This document shows, in pieces, positions 1,773-41,355 of a DNA stretch of 44,106 nt. The translations under genes and the position numbers were made by a program. The notes below the pieces were generated by a model. The model was given only the letters and a program-made list of their open reading frames with translations. It was not told the DNA's origin and did no database searches. Position 1 is the stretch's first letter. Each line of letters opens with the position of its first letter. Source of the stretch: a virus. Location of the stretch: positions 1 through 44,106 of IMG/VR virus record IMGVR_UViG_3300031963_000292; one strand, written 5' to 3'.

Positions 1773-3986
<2,214 letters not shown>

Positions 3987-10058: not shown

Positions 10059-10261
10059 AAGAGTTAGATCTTCATGGTGTATCTCATTATGATGTAAGAG
10101 ATGTAGTTGAAAACTTCATCCTAATGAATAATCCTCCATTTAGAATAATAACAGGATATTCTGAAAGAATGAGAAATCTAACTCAAAATACACTTGATAA
10201 ACATAAACTTCAACATTATATTCCAGCTCATAACCCAGGAGAAATAATTGTAATAGATTAA
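10055..10261 (+). CDS. Smr-domain protein
   Basis: A 68-aa stand-alone Smr-type domain: the LDLHGVSHYDVRDVVENFI start matches the Smr LDLHG signature and helix, PPFRIITGYS matches the central strand before the HG-type turn (here TGYSERM), and the tail NPGEIIVID matches the final strand. Smr domains are nicking nucleases or RNA-binding modules, so it may act on nucleic acids. It is shorter than the typical 80-85 aa. Confidence 0.75.
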   Translation: MKELDLHGVSHYDVRDVVENFILMNNPPFRIITGYSERMRNLTQNTLDKHKLQHYIPAHNPGEIIVID

Positions 10262-10272
10262 AATAAATTAAT

Positions 10273-10425
10273 ATGGAAATTACAAACACTAAACAACACA
10301 TTGAAGCATTACTTGCTGAAATCCAAGTATTAAGATCTAGATTTGAAGACACAGACACAGGTCATCTCCGTACAACAGTAAATGTACTAGAGGATCGAGT
10401 TAAAGAACTTTTAAATTCATTATAA
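10273..10425 (+). CDS. Small coiled-coil protein, unknown
   Basis: A 50-aa frame, nearly all helical with heptads (HIEALLAEIQVLRSRFED, then TVNVLEDRVKELLNSL). The stop TAA overlaps the next ATG (TAATG), supporting translation. Possibly a small oligomeric protein; unknown. Confidence 0.5.
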   Translation: MEITNTKQHIEALLAEIQVLRSRFEDTDTGHLRTTVNVLEDRVKELLNSL

Positions 10426-10661
10426 TGGCTAAAGATACCTGCATTATGTGTGGTGTAGAAACACCATACGACTTTGAAACACATATTGACCTACGTATTG
10501 GCTACATTGAAGGTGCTGGTCAATTATGTTCAGCGTGCTATAATAAAGGCAATAATCGCAATCATTTAACTGTACCTGAATGGTTAGTTGAAAATTATCC
10601 TAATGATCAAGAATTAGGAGCCAAAGTAAGAGAAATATATTGGCAAAATAAAAGTTTATAA
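10425..10661 (+). CDS. Small zinc-ribbon protein, unknown
   Basis: A 78-aa protein with two CXXC knuckles, CIMC (residues 5-8) and CSAC (about 36-39), spaced like a zinc ribbon, followed by a helical tail. The short phrase MCGVETPYDFETHIDLRIGY is typical of conserved phage zinc-ribbon hypotheticals. It probably binds one zinc; partner unknown. Confidence 0.65.
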   Translation: MAKDTCIMCGVETPYDFETHIDLRIGYIEGAGQLCSACYNKGNNRNHLTVPEWLVENYPNDQELGAKVREIYWQNKSL

Positions 10662-37099: not shown

Positions 37100-37702
37100 A
37101 TGCCTTTAGCTAAACCTATTACTAGGGAAGACGTTTTGCGTGCTATGCGATTTACAAAATCGAATCGTGCTGCTGCTAAGTATTTAGGTTGCTCATATCA
37201 ACATTATAAGCCGTTTGCTAAGTTATTTAAGGTAGATGAAAGTGATTATAATTCACCTTCATTATTTGATGTTCATAAAAATCAAAGTGGTAAAGGTATT
37301 CCTAAATTTCTACCTGATAGGAAAAAATCACCTAATGTAAAGCAAATTGTAGAAACAGGTACTGGTTGGGAATCATTTACACCTGAAAAAATTAAATCAA
37401 GGTTAATAGCTGAAAATTACCTAAAAGAAGAATGTTATGCTTGTGGGTTCTGTGAACGTAGAGTTACTGACTATAAAATACCACTATTATTAAATTTTAA
37501 AGATGGAAACAAATTTAACTATCTTCTTTCTAACCTTGAGTTACTGTGTTACAACCATTACTTTCTATTGGTTGCTGACCCACTTACCCCAGATCAAGTA
37601 CGTCATATTGAAGATAATACAGAAGTTAAAGCAGTGGCTCACGATTGGGATCTAGATGAAGCTCATTTAGAGAACATGAAAGCATTAGGACTGTTGGATT
37701 AG
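37100..37702 (+). CDS. HTH plus degenerate HNH-like zinc protein
   Basis: A 200-aa protein. The N-terminal NRAAAKYLGCSYQHYKPFAK (about 23-42) looks like a helix-turn-helix; the C-terminal region has CYACGFCERRV and then LLLNFKDGNKFNYLLSNLEL and LCYNHYFL, the layout of phage HNH domains (C-x-x-C, L-x-H-x-D-G, N-N, L-C-x-x-C-H), but the catalytic His of the H-x-D-G motif is replaced by Asn/Phe (LNFKDG), and the last Cys-His is C-YNH. It may be a homing endonuclease remnant now used as a DNA-binding protein. Confidence 0.65.
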   Translation: MPLAKPITREDVLRAMRFTKSNRAAAKYLGCSYQHYKPFAKLFKVDESDYNSPSLFDVHKNQSGKGIPKFLPDRKKSPNVKQIVETGTGWESFTPEKIKSRLIAENYLKEECYACGFCERRVTDYKIPLLLNFKDGNKFNYLLSNLELLCYNHYFLLVADPLTPDQVRHIEDNTEVKAVAHDWDLDEAHLENMKALGLLD

Positions 37703-38611: not shown

Positions 38612-38710
38612 TGACCCTTAGCTCAGTAGGTTAGAGCAAGCTTCAGTACTTCGCGAATCCAAAACGCAAGGAAAAAAGCCGTGCCACTGGTTCGATTCCA
38701 GTAGGGTCAG
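38612..38710 (+). tRNA. tRNA-like element with enlarged anticodon loop (isotype unknown)
   Basis: Acceptor TGACCCT (38612-38618) pairs with AGGGTCA (38703-38709), discriminator G; D stem GCTC/GAGC and T arm ACTGG-TTCGATT-CCAGT are intact. Between them, where a 7-base anticodon loop is expected, a 4-bp stem GCTT/AAGC (38640-38643 and 38676-38679) encloses 32 bases that include a further hairpin (CTTCGCG with CGCAAG, 38649-38670). So it has about 25 extra bases. No anticodon or U33 can be assigned. It could be an intron-containing tRNA, a degenerate tRNA, or a tRNA-like RNA with another job. Confidence 0.5.
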
Positions 38711-38717
38711 CAAATAT

Positions 38718-39139: not shown

Positions 39140-39376
39140 ATGGAAGTATTTGGCTGTTATTATTTATTAACTCTTTTATATTGCATGATAATGCAAGCAA
39201 GAAGATGGAAACAAGATGCTATGGCTGGTGGATTAGGAATTTCCCCAGGATTAGATACTTTATCTTTACTAATCATGTGTTGGGCTTTAGCACCCGTTGA
39301 TATATTTTTGAAATGGGTTGAGGTATATAAAGAAGCAGAAGAGGCAAGACGTCGTGGAGCTAAAAAAAGATTGTAA
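39140..39376 (+). CDS. Small membrane-associated protein, unknown
   Basis: A 78-aa protein starting MEVFGCYYLLTLLYCMIMQA (first membrane helix), followed by GGLGISPGLDTLSLLIMCWA (second helix) and a Arg/Lys-rich tail. It begins 6 bases after the previous stop. Its stop codon at 39374-39376 lies inside the 5' acceptor strand of the tRNA-like element that starts at 39372, so coding and RNA overlap. Confidence 0.6.
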   Translation: MEVFGCYYLLTLLYCMIMQARRWKQDAMAGGLGISPGLDTLSLLIMCWALAPVDIFLKWVEVYKEAEEARRRGAKKRL

Positions 39377-39527
39377 GGTGGTGAAATAACCTAGGTTATG
39401 GTAGACACTCCCACTCGTCTCGTGGGCGCGGAGCTCGAAATAGGTAAGTAATATGGATTGACCACGTAGCGCGCTATGTTGTTATTTACTAAATCGCCGC
39501 ATGTTGGTTCGAATCCAACCCTTACAA
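39372..39527 (+). tRNA. tRNA-like element of 156 nt with large insertions
   Basis: Acceptor TGTAAGG (39372-39378) pairs with CCTTACA (39520-39526), discriminator A. The D arm is Leu-like, GTG/CAC, but its loop contains the perfect 14-bp palindrome ATAACCTAGGTTAT (39386-39399). A 5-bp arm CCCAC-TCGTCTC-GTGGG follows; the loop would give GTC but position 33 is C, not T. Then about 75 bases form a long arm: GCGG (39428-39431) with CCGC (39497-39500) and GGTAAGTAA (39443-39451) with TTATTTACT (39482-39490), ending in an intact T arm GTTGG-TTCGAAT-CCAAC. It looks like a class II tRNA with an extreme variable arm, or a degenerate or re-purposed tRNA. Confidence 0.5.
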
Positions 39528-39530
39528 CAC

Positions 39531-40300: not shown

Positions 40301-40659
40301 GGGGGAGTCCAGGTATTGCTCCGTAATGTGAAGGTACCACTACATGCAGGCGTTTGGATATGTCGCCTTTAAACAAATTTTCAAACAATAAATGACGAAA
40401 TGTCAACAATGACCTTCGACGACTTAATGGCGTTCGTAGGTGCCGATTACGCTGTAGCAGCCTAATCCGCGAGGGGCAGCTGATAGCCTTGCAACAGAAC
40501 AGCACTTTAGTTTTCCTAGTTATGTCAAAACTAGGTGGTGGAGCCGACGTTAACCAAAATCAACGTCCCCAATTACTGATCAGCTTGCAGATCTAAGCAT
40601 GTGATACGCTGGTGTTATTGTTCCTTATGGATACACGGGTTCGATTCCCGTCTCCTCCA
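40301..40659 (+). ncRNA. ssrA: tmRNA (SsrA RNA), phage-encoded
   Basis: Acceptor GGGGGAG (40301-40307) pairs with CTCCTCC (40652-40658) with a G-T at the third pair, as in tRNA-Ala and tmRNA; discriminator A40659; T arm ACGGG-TTCGATT-CCCGT (40635-40651). It encloses a reading frame ending GCCGATTACGCTGTAGCAGCC-TAA, i.e. a tag ending in GADYAVAA; the stop is at 40463-40465. The frame opens after TAA at 40370-40372; the most natural tag start is near 40391 (NDE...), giving about 24 residues, longer than the usual 10. Several pseudoknot-forming segments follow. Length about 359 nt is normal. Sits 5 bases after gene 39969-40295. No CCA is encoded. Confidence 0.9.
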
Positions 40660-40664
40660 CAAAT

Positions 40665-41007: not shown

Positions 41008-41016
41008 ATATTTATA
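41008..41016 (+). promoter_or_regulatory. ATATTTATA box in front of the 41.0 kb ncRNA
   Basis: Exact ATATTTATA within CATATATTTATATATAC. No coding start follows for 359 bases; instead a structured non-coding stretch begins. This instance argues for the box being a transcription signal rather than a translation signal. Confidence 0.5.
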
Positions 41017-41021
41017 TATAC

Positions 41022-41313
41022 AAAACGTGGCCGAATAAGCGGTTGAGAGCTGCTAAGGCACTGGCAAAATAGCTGAAAAGCTGTTGAGTTGGGTTTCACA
41101 GACGGATGAGTTTAAACCACCACCATCAAGGGTAGAATGCGCAACCCGAAGGTGCTCTGGATACGCTGAAGAACATTAATCATGATCTCCGCAGGCGTTG
41201 TTGGTAATCAAACCAACCTGTCGTTAACACTTAGACTGATCATCTTTGTGGACAGTGGGTGAAAAGGGGTCCGTCCAGGGATTGTGGGTAATCATTACTC
41301 CCATCATTTTTTT
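41022..41313 (+). ncRNA. Candidate structured non-coding RNA of about 300 nt
   Basis: From just after an ATATTTATA box to an intrinsic terminator there are about 290 bases with no plausible gene, noticeably more G+C rich than the surroundings. Local pairings include GGGT-AGAATGCGCA-ACCC, GGTTT...AAACC, TTGGT...ACCAA and TGGGTAA-TCA-TTA-CTCCCA. The first part (GTGGCCGAATAAGCGG) is reminiscent of a Ser/Leu tRNA D-arm, but no tRNA fits. The hallmark motifs of RNase P, SRP RNA or tmRNA are not found. It is a candidate regulatory or large phage RNA; no family assignment. Confidence 0.6.
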
Positions 41314-41346
41314 AAGGGTGGTTCGTTCGCGAACCGCCCTTTTTTT
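41314..41346 (+). terminator. Strong Rho-independent terminator
   Basis: 12-bp stem AAGGGTGGTTCG / CGAACCGCCCTT (one T-G wobble) with a TTCG loop, followed by a run of T. It terminates the ncRNA and insulates the next gene; the next ATATTTATA box starts immediately after it. Confidence 0.95.
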
Positions 41347-41355
41347 ATATTTATA
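41347..41355 (+). promoter_or_regulatory. ATATTTATA box before secreted protein 41376
   Basis: Exact ATATTTATA directly after the terminator T-run and 20 bases before ATG 41376. Terminator-then-box order is what a promoter would show. Confidence 0.5.

Follow-up and report, generated by a model that had tools for sequence, protein, structure and literature searches.

The locus and its surroundings

The DNA analysed here, referred to as the window, is an IMG/VR virus record of 44,106 nt. Towards its end, downstream of four tRNA genes, it carries the following features:

40301–40660, + strand: phage tmRNA gene (Rfam match to 40662, 64.8 bits; also called by ARAGORN)
41008–41016, + strand: promoter-like box ATATTTATA, of phage late-promoter type, 5' of the RNA (sequence and recurrence in other loci)
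41025–41346, + strand: structured RNA gene (homologues and covariation; 3' end set by the terminator)
41314–41348, + strand: intrinsic terminator, 12-bp stem and seven Ts (sequence)

The 5' end of the RNA is inferred to lie at about 41020–41027; the tmRNA gene is located 365 bp upstream of the RNA. An earlier note on this DNA had described a non-coding, GC-rich stretch between a promoter-like box and an intrinsic terminator. Inspection of the sequence bore this out: the box ATATTTATA is present at 41008–41016, a 12-bp stem (41314–41341) is followed by seven Ts, no open reading frame of at least 60 aa overlaps 41025–41346 on either strand, and the GC content of the RNA stretch is ~0.45 compared with 0.30–0.33 in the flanking genes. 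The note had also found no tmRNA signature; here it was mistaken, having missed the tmRNA that adjoins the RNA at 40301–40660.

Such single-sequence features of the window (box, GC content, terminator, folding energy) prove little alone. The RNA folded by itself gave a z-score of −1.44, with eight of 100 shuffles equally good, and single-sequence folding energy was rejected as proof of an RNA for lack of significance. The box TATATTTAT is not over-represented in the window (7 seen, 4.8±2.0 expected). It gains meaning because it recurs 15–70 nt upstream of the RNA in eight of 15 loci: at 15–26 nt in the window, L046, L049, L055 and L057, and at 40–70 nt in L044, L048 and L062. The same box stands directly before the baseplate hub gene of Flavobacterium phage immuto, and again at 41347 in the window, directly after the terminator, where it is likely to be the promoter of the next gene. 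A terminator-like stem with a T-run is present in most relatives from small phages.

Rfam 15 holds no family that matches the RNA stretch at its curated threshold, and no match to tmRNA, RNase P, SRP or 6S RNA was found at 41025–41346. Weak Rfam matches in the window (sbrA, L20_leader and similar) cover the terminator only and were discarded. A type-IX-secretion sorting domain in a protein neighbouring the RNA, and the similarity of window proteins to those of phage immuto, are pointers to a host among the Bacteroidota. The window also encodes a phage GroEL (19063–20694; 543 aa, PHROG E 6e-153) and a ribonucleotide reductase (1773–3626).

Some neighbouring RNA genes are unusual in their own right. 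The tmRNAs of the window (40301–40660) and of many relatives encode long tag peptides of 23–25 residues, e.g. DEMSTMTFDDLMAFVGADYAVAA. A tRNA-like gene at 38612–38714, missed by ARAGORN, has acceptor, D and T arms matching the tRNA-Phe of L001 and an insert of ~25 nt in the anticodon arm (compare L001 4122–4196 and L003 3873–3985). The insert is also kept in L003, L005 and L002 and partly in L009 and L010, and the gene is possibly one with a tRNA intron or a tRNA-derived RNA; Lak phages reportedly carry tRNA introns. A second tRNA-like non-coding stretch (39372–39530) combines an 8-bp acceptor (TTGTAAGG/CCTTACAA) and a T arm with a long insert. It is 76–80% conserved in L048 (1973–2100) and L050 (1090–1203), and it overlaps an open reading frame (39140–39376) at the latter's 3' end.

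Homologues and their shared fold

A search with neighbouring genes found the RNA at the same place in L004/L055, where it is 88% identical and where bases of helix P4 (listed below) are already changed on both sides relative to the window. Pattern scans with conserved segments yielded 15 further IMG/VR loci with the RNA (L044–L046, L048–L051, L054, L055 and L057–L062); in L047, L052, L053 and L056 the pattern had matched unrelated sequence, and a scan for exact 21-mers detected no relatives. BLAST with the IMG/VR copies reached the 735-kb huge phage LR756501 (nhmmer E 7e-15), which in turn led to the RNA in every one of the 15 Lak genome records, among them MK250015 (492015–492309) and MK250020 (132348–132644). 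GTDB genomes, scanned with two patterns whose sensitivity is limited to close relatives, revealed no cellular copy; the match L064 was a chance one in coding sequence, and L063 was also due to chance. The phages Flavobacterium immuto and Bacteroides DAC16 share the promoter box without yielding a copy of the RNA, and the searches turned up no sequenced isolate that carries it. As far as tested, the RNA is confined to Bacteroidota phages, including the largest known phage genomes: the same fold occurs in freshwater and marine Bacteroidota phages, gut Lak megaphages and the 735-kb phage. Many relatives keep the same neighbour genes and the tmRNA yet are without the RNA, which marks it as an accessory gene, dispensable in some lineages.

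The first structure set comprised 14 aligned relatives and 73 named base pairs in 14 helices. In window coordinates, all on the + strand, the elements are:

41026–41100, +: domain I, a three-way junction (pair counts; GAAA in 18 of 18)
41026–41029/41097–41100, +: P1, in domain I (pair counts)
41030–41032/41057–41059, +: P2a (pair counts)
41038–41044/41048–41054, +: P2b (pair counts)
41061–41065/41088–41092, +: P3a (pair counts)
41068–41074/41079–41085, +: P3b, capped by the GAAA loop 41075–41078 (pair counts; loop invariant)
41101–41275, +: domain II, closed by P4 and P5
41101–41107/41269–41275, +: P4 (three pairs changed on both sides in 14 sequences)
41116–41118/41258–41260, +: P5
41124–41154, +: P6/P8 hairpin, pairs 41124–41127/41151–41154 and 41130–41133/41144–41147
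41138–41143, +: palindrome UGCGCA in the 10-nt P8 loop, candidate kissing loop of a homodimer
41163–41198, +: P7 hairpin, pairs 41163–41167/41194–41198 (pair counts), carrying the 5' pseudoknot strand 41182–41186
41200–41204/41213–41217, +: P10 hairpin with loop UAAUCAAA (three pairs with double changes)
41218–41222/41251–41255, +: P11, within 41218–41255 (three pairs with double changes)
41228–41231/41247–41250, +: P12 with loop palindrome UGAUCA at 41237–41242 (UCAUGA in Lak)
41284–41304, +: P13 hairpin with 11-nt loop, pairs 41284–41288/41300–41304
41291–41295, +: 3' pseudoknot strand in the P13 loop (pseudoknot variants across members)

Across the 14 relatives 97.8% of the cells were paired and 29 of the 73 pairs were changed on both sides, compared with 15.7 in shuffled alignments; the covariation score was 0.321, which no shuffle reached. 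Structures slid along the alignment had 28–43% of cells paired and 1–4 pairs changed on both sides. The 735-kb phage and three Lak types were then added in a manual alignment, made one helix at a time and guided by the structure; in this larger set 98.4% of cells were paired and 47 of 65 pairs were changed on both sides. These counts are not independent events, several members being near relatives, and drawing the structure from the same sequences favours it over the slid versions. Independent support for the fold comes from a covariance model built from the 14 small-phage sequences alone, which found the Lak and 735-kb members, unseen during building, at the same places (E 4e-26, 3e-24 and 6e-27).

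Individual elements illustrate this conservation. P4 is replaced wholesale in the 735-kb phage and in Lak (GACGGAU/GUCCGUC in the window, AUUAAG/CUUAAU in Lak), and the P3 loop is GAAA in all 18 sequences. A 5-bp pseudoknot connects the loops of P7 and P13; it reads AUGAU/AUCAU in the window, ACGAU/AUCGU in eight sequences, CUGAU/AUCAG in two and CUGAU/GUCAG in three, and in four with AUGAU/GUCAG four of the five pairs form. The earlier note had proposed a structured non-coding RNA, perhaps of a new family, that could be checked for covariation among homologous phage sequences and would be refuted by homologues without conserved structure. Homologues exist, their fold is strongly conserved, and the compensatory changes exceed those of the controls. 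We have practically no doubt that this is a conserved structured RNA family. With a covarying fold and no Rfam 15 family at its threshold, it is a new one, previously uncatalogued and present in no RNA catalogue searched.

Two loops are palindromic. Most members have UGCGCA in the P8 loop, whereas L061 has UGUACA; in L059, L062, the 735-kb phage and Lak, a GGCC-loop hairpin takes the place of this loop, and its stem varies while staying paired. The P12 loop is UGAUCA in small phages and UCAUGA in Lak, with only GAUC remaining in the 735-kb phage. Neighbouring bases within a loop are unable to pair in the same chain, so that the persistence of a palindrome while its sequence changes is a hint that two molecules pair with each other, an argument made for the symmetric kissing loops of OLE and GOLLD (PMC12286853). 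In the L9.3 dimer contact of OLE, too, a palindromic loop swaps its sequence and stays palindromic, with GGCC among the variants (PMC12286853); OLE, however, is a larger, cellular RNA of extremophiles, and no sequence relation to it was detected. In the majority of members the P8 palindrome is the same, and evidence for a two-sided change within it is limited to a single sequence (L061) and the different hairpin form. Oligomerization is inferred only, and we consider the odds that the RNA forms a homodimer via the P8 loop to be about even.

Relation to manA RNA

The closest described RNA is manA (RF01745), found in T4-like cyanophages and marine metagenomes and filed as a possible riboswitch or cis-regulator (PMC2864571). 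That our RNA is a divergent member of this family is possible but doubtful. L062 matched the whole manA model with 33.4 bits (E 3.5e-7), and weaker, sub-threshold matches fell at the RNA locus in many other records. However, this best score remains below the manA cut-off of 55.2 bits, which no member reached (window: 11–15 bits), and control genomes also gave weak manA matches. Our models R1 and R2 did not recover true manA RNAs, with nothing convincing in manA-bearing cyanophages. Because the scores are below the cut-off and our own models miss true manA RNAs, we did not file the RNA as manA.

The structural comparison is similarly divided. Both RNAs have a 5' module GUG-RC-nGAAUAA-hairpin-UAA and a 3' hairpin UUGugGGUA-(11-nt loop)-CCca, with a loop able to pair to the hairpin that precedes it. 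The 5' module of manA, GUGaCUGAAUAA-hairpin-UAAgG, is met in the window by GUGGCCGAAUAA-P2b-UAAGG, with variants in the 735-kb phage and Lak; P13 and the pseudoknot correspond to its 3' hairpin, in which the 11-nt loop pairs with the hairpin upstream. The manA pseudoknot was marked uncertain by its authors and may be read from the consensus as ACUGUA/UACAGU. In contrast, P4, P10–P12 and the GAAA arm of P3 have no clear manA counterpart, manA being without the P4/P10–P12 domain and shorter (192 positions versus ~290). Nor is the outer stem of manA, GGGaG/CuCCC, seen in our RNA: no covarying pairing of the flanks could be found, and P1 closes domain I only.

Both RNAs are phage-borne, and the genomic position of manA is partly comparable. 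In S-CREM1 it lies within a tRNA cluster, between tRNA-Leu and tRNA-Asn, and in S-SSM7 directly before tRNA-Gly; in P-SSM2 it occupies a leader-like position between regA and purL. What makes a distant relationship plausible is that the two RNAs have the 5' module and the 3' hairpin in common and that manA lies beside tRNAs in S-CREM1 and S-SSM7. The S-CREM1 copy (10215–10429; L088 2216–2430), annotated as cis-regulatory, sits between two tRNA genes in a cluster that also holds wcaG and abiF RNAs.

Gene context and mode of action

Of the 15 small-phage loci, 12 have a tmRNA gene close to the RNA (the window, L044–L046, L048–L051, L054, L060 and L061, and L057 by sequence). In L045, L051, L054 and L061 the RNA starts 8–13 nt after the tmRNA end, suggesting co-transcription and processing. 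In Lak it lies between tRNA-Thr and tRNA-Met (L066, L067 and L069) or between other tRNA calls (L068 and L070); in the 735-kb phage no tRNA was found within 6 kb. The same knotted fold in different phages, nearly always beside tRNA or tmRNA genes, probably indicates a working phage RNA rather than a protein-coding or control region. The RNA and the tmRNA may be neighbours because both belong to one cluster of RNA genes and not because they share a function, and antisense pairing between RNA and tmRNA did not consistently exceed shuffles, doing so in one case only (L050). The abstract of the Lak paper mentions highly expressed intergenic regions (PMC6784885), among which the RNA locus could not be placed from the abstract. 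An extra 5' hairpin of ~50 nt (ACUUAGC-ACAG...CUGU-...GCUAAGU) sits directly upstream of the RNA in L048, L050 and L062, between it and the promoter box or upstream RNA gene; other members are without it.

The terminator directly after the structured part, and the filing of manA, the nearest Rfam relative, as a possible riboswitch, would also fit a cis-acting riboswitch or attenuator, in which an aptamer and terminator control the downstream gene as proposed for manA. Such an element would be expected before a constant class of genes, but the RNA is followed by at least three unrelated protein families and singletons, or by tRNAs: a lipoprotein-like gene in the window, L055 and L057, a small membrane protein in L048, L058, L059 and L061, a 91-aa protein in L045 and L060, and tRNA genes in L045, L060 and Lak. 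In the window, moreover, the next gene has a promoter-like box of its own, at 41347, after the terminator. The differing downstream genes fit a trans-acting RNA better than a leader, and we consider cis-regulation improbable. A guide or scaffold for a phage nuclease, of the HEARO/IsrB or omega-RNA type, can be set aside almost entirely, as the only hint is an HNH endonuclease gene 3.3 kb upstream (37100–37702), while no variable guide segment or consistent nuclease neighbour was noticed and HEARO was not matched in Rfam.

We therefore favour a stand-alone, trans-acting phage non-coding RNA of ~300 nt, a new family in Bacteroidota phages, with a probability of roughly 0.7; no expression or probing data exist for the locus. 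A stand-alone gene is indicated by the box upstream, the terminator downstream and the unrelated genes or tRNAs that follow, and action in trans taken by itself is very probable. The RNA would be transcribed alone, or co-transcribed with tmRNA or tRNAs and then cut out. Docking of the GAAA tetraloop and the P7–P13 loop pseudoknot would fold it into a compact particle, which may pair with a second copy, probably through the palindromic P8 loop. That it affects translation, or the pool of tRNAs and tmRNA, in the course of infection is speculative, and a role linked to translation remains a tentative suggestion. A comparable role has reportedly been suggested for GOLLD and ROOL.

The earlier note had pointed to GOLLD- or ROOL-type RNAs. 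Identity can be dropped, as neither covariance model in Rfam matched the RNA, and only a comparison of how they may work survives. Like them, the RNA is phage-borne and lies near tRNA islands, and ROOL and GOLLD are large, heavily folded, pseudoknotted phage RNAs with possible RNA–RNA contacts via palindromic loops (PMC12286853); however, they measure 600–800 nt or more compared with ~300 and have different helices, and of a homo-oligomeric cage our RNA shows no more than the palindromic loops. The tmRNA (RF00023), likewise phage-encoded and a neighbour in most small-phage members, is a separate gene, whereas the RNA has neither a tag reading frame nor tRNA-like ends. A wider proposal, doubtful at present, is that GOLLD and ROOL are joined by a third superfamily of phage RNAs from tRNA islands, which would dimerize or oligomerize via two palindromic loops, span phages of 170 kb to 735 kb and include cyanophage manA as a short branch, phage 'manA' then being trans-acting and not a riboswitch.

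Should the relationship to manA prove true, that family, listed since 2010 as a candidate riboswitch, would need re-reading. The covarying palindromic loop makes homo-dimerization directly testable in vitro. A fold kept across Bacteroidota phages, 15 Lak records and a 735-kb phage must be useful to large phages, and the recurrent position of the RNA next to tmRNA and tRNA genes is a hint of a connection with the takeover of translation.
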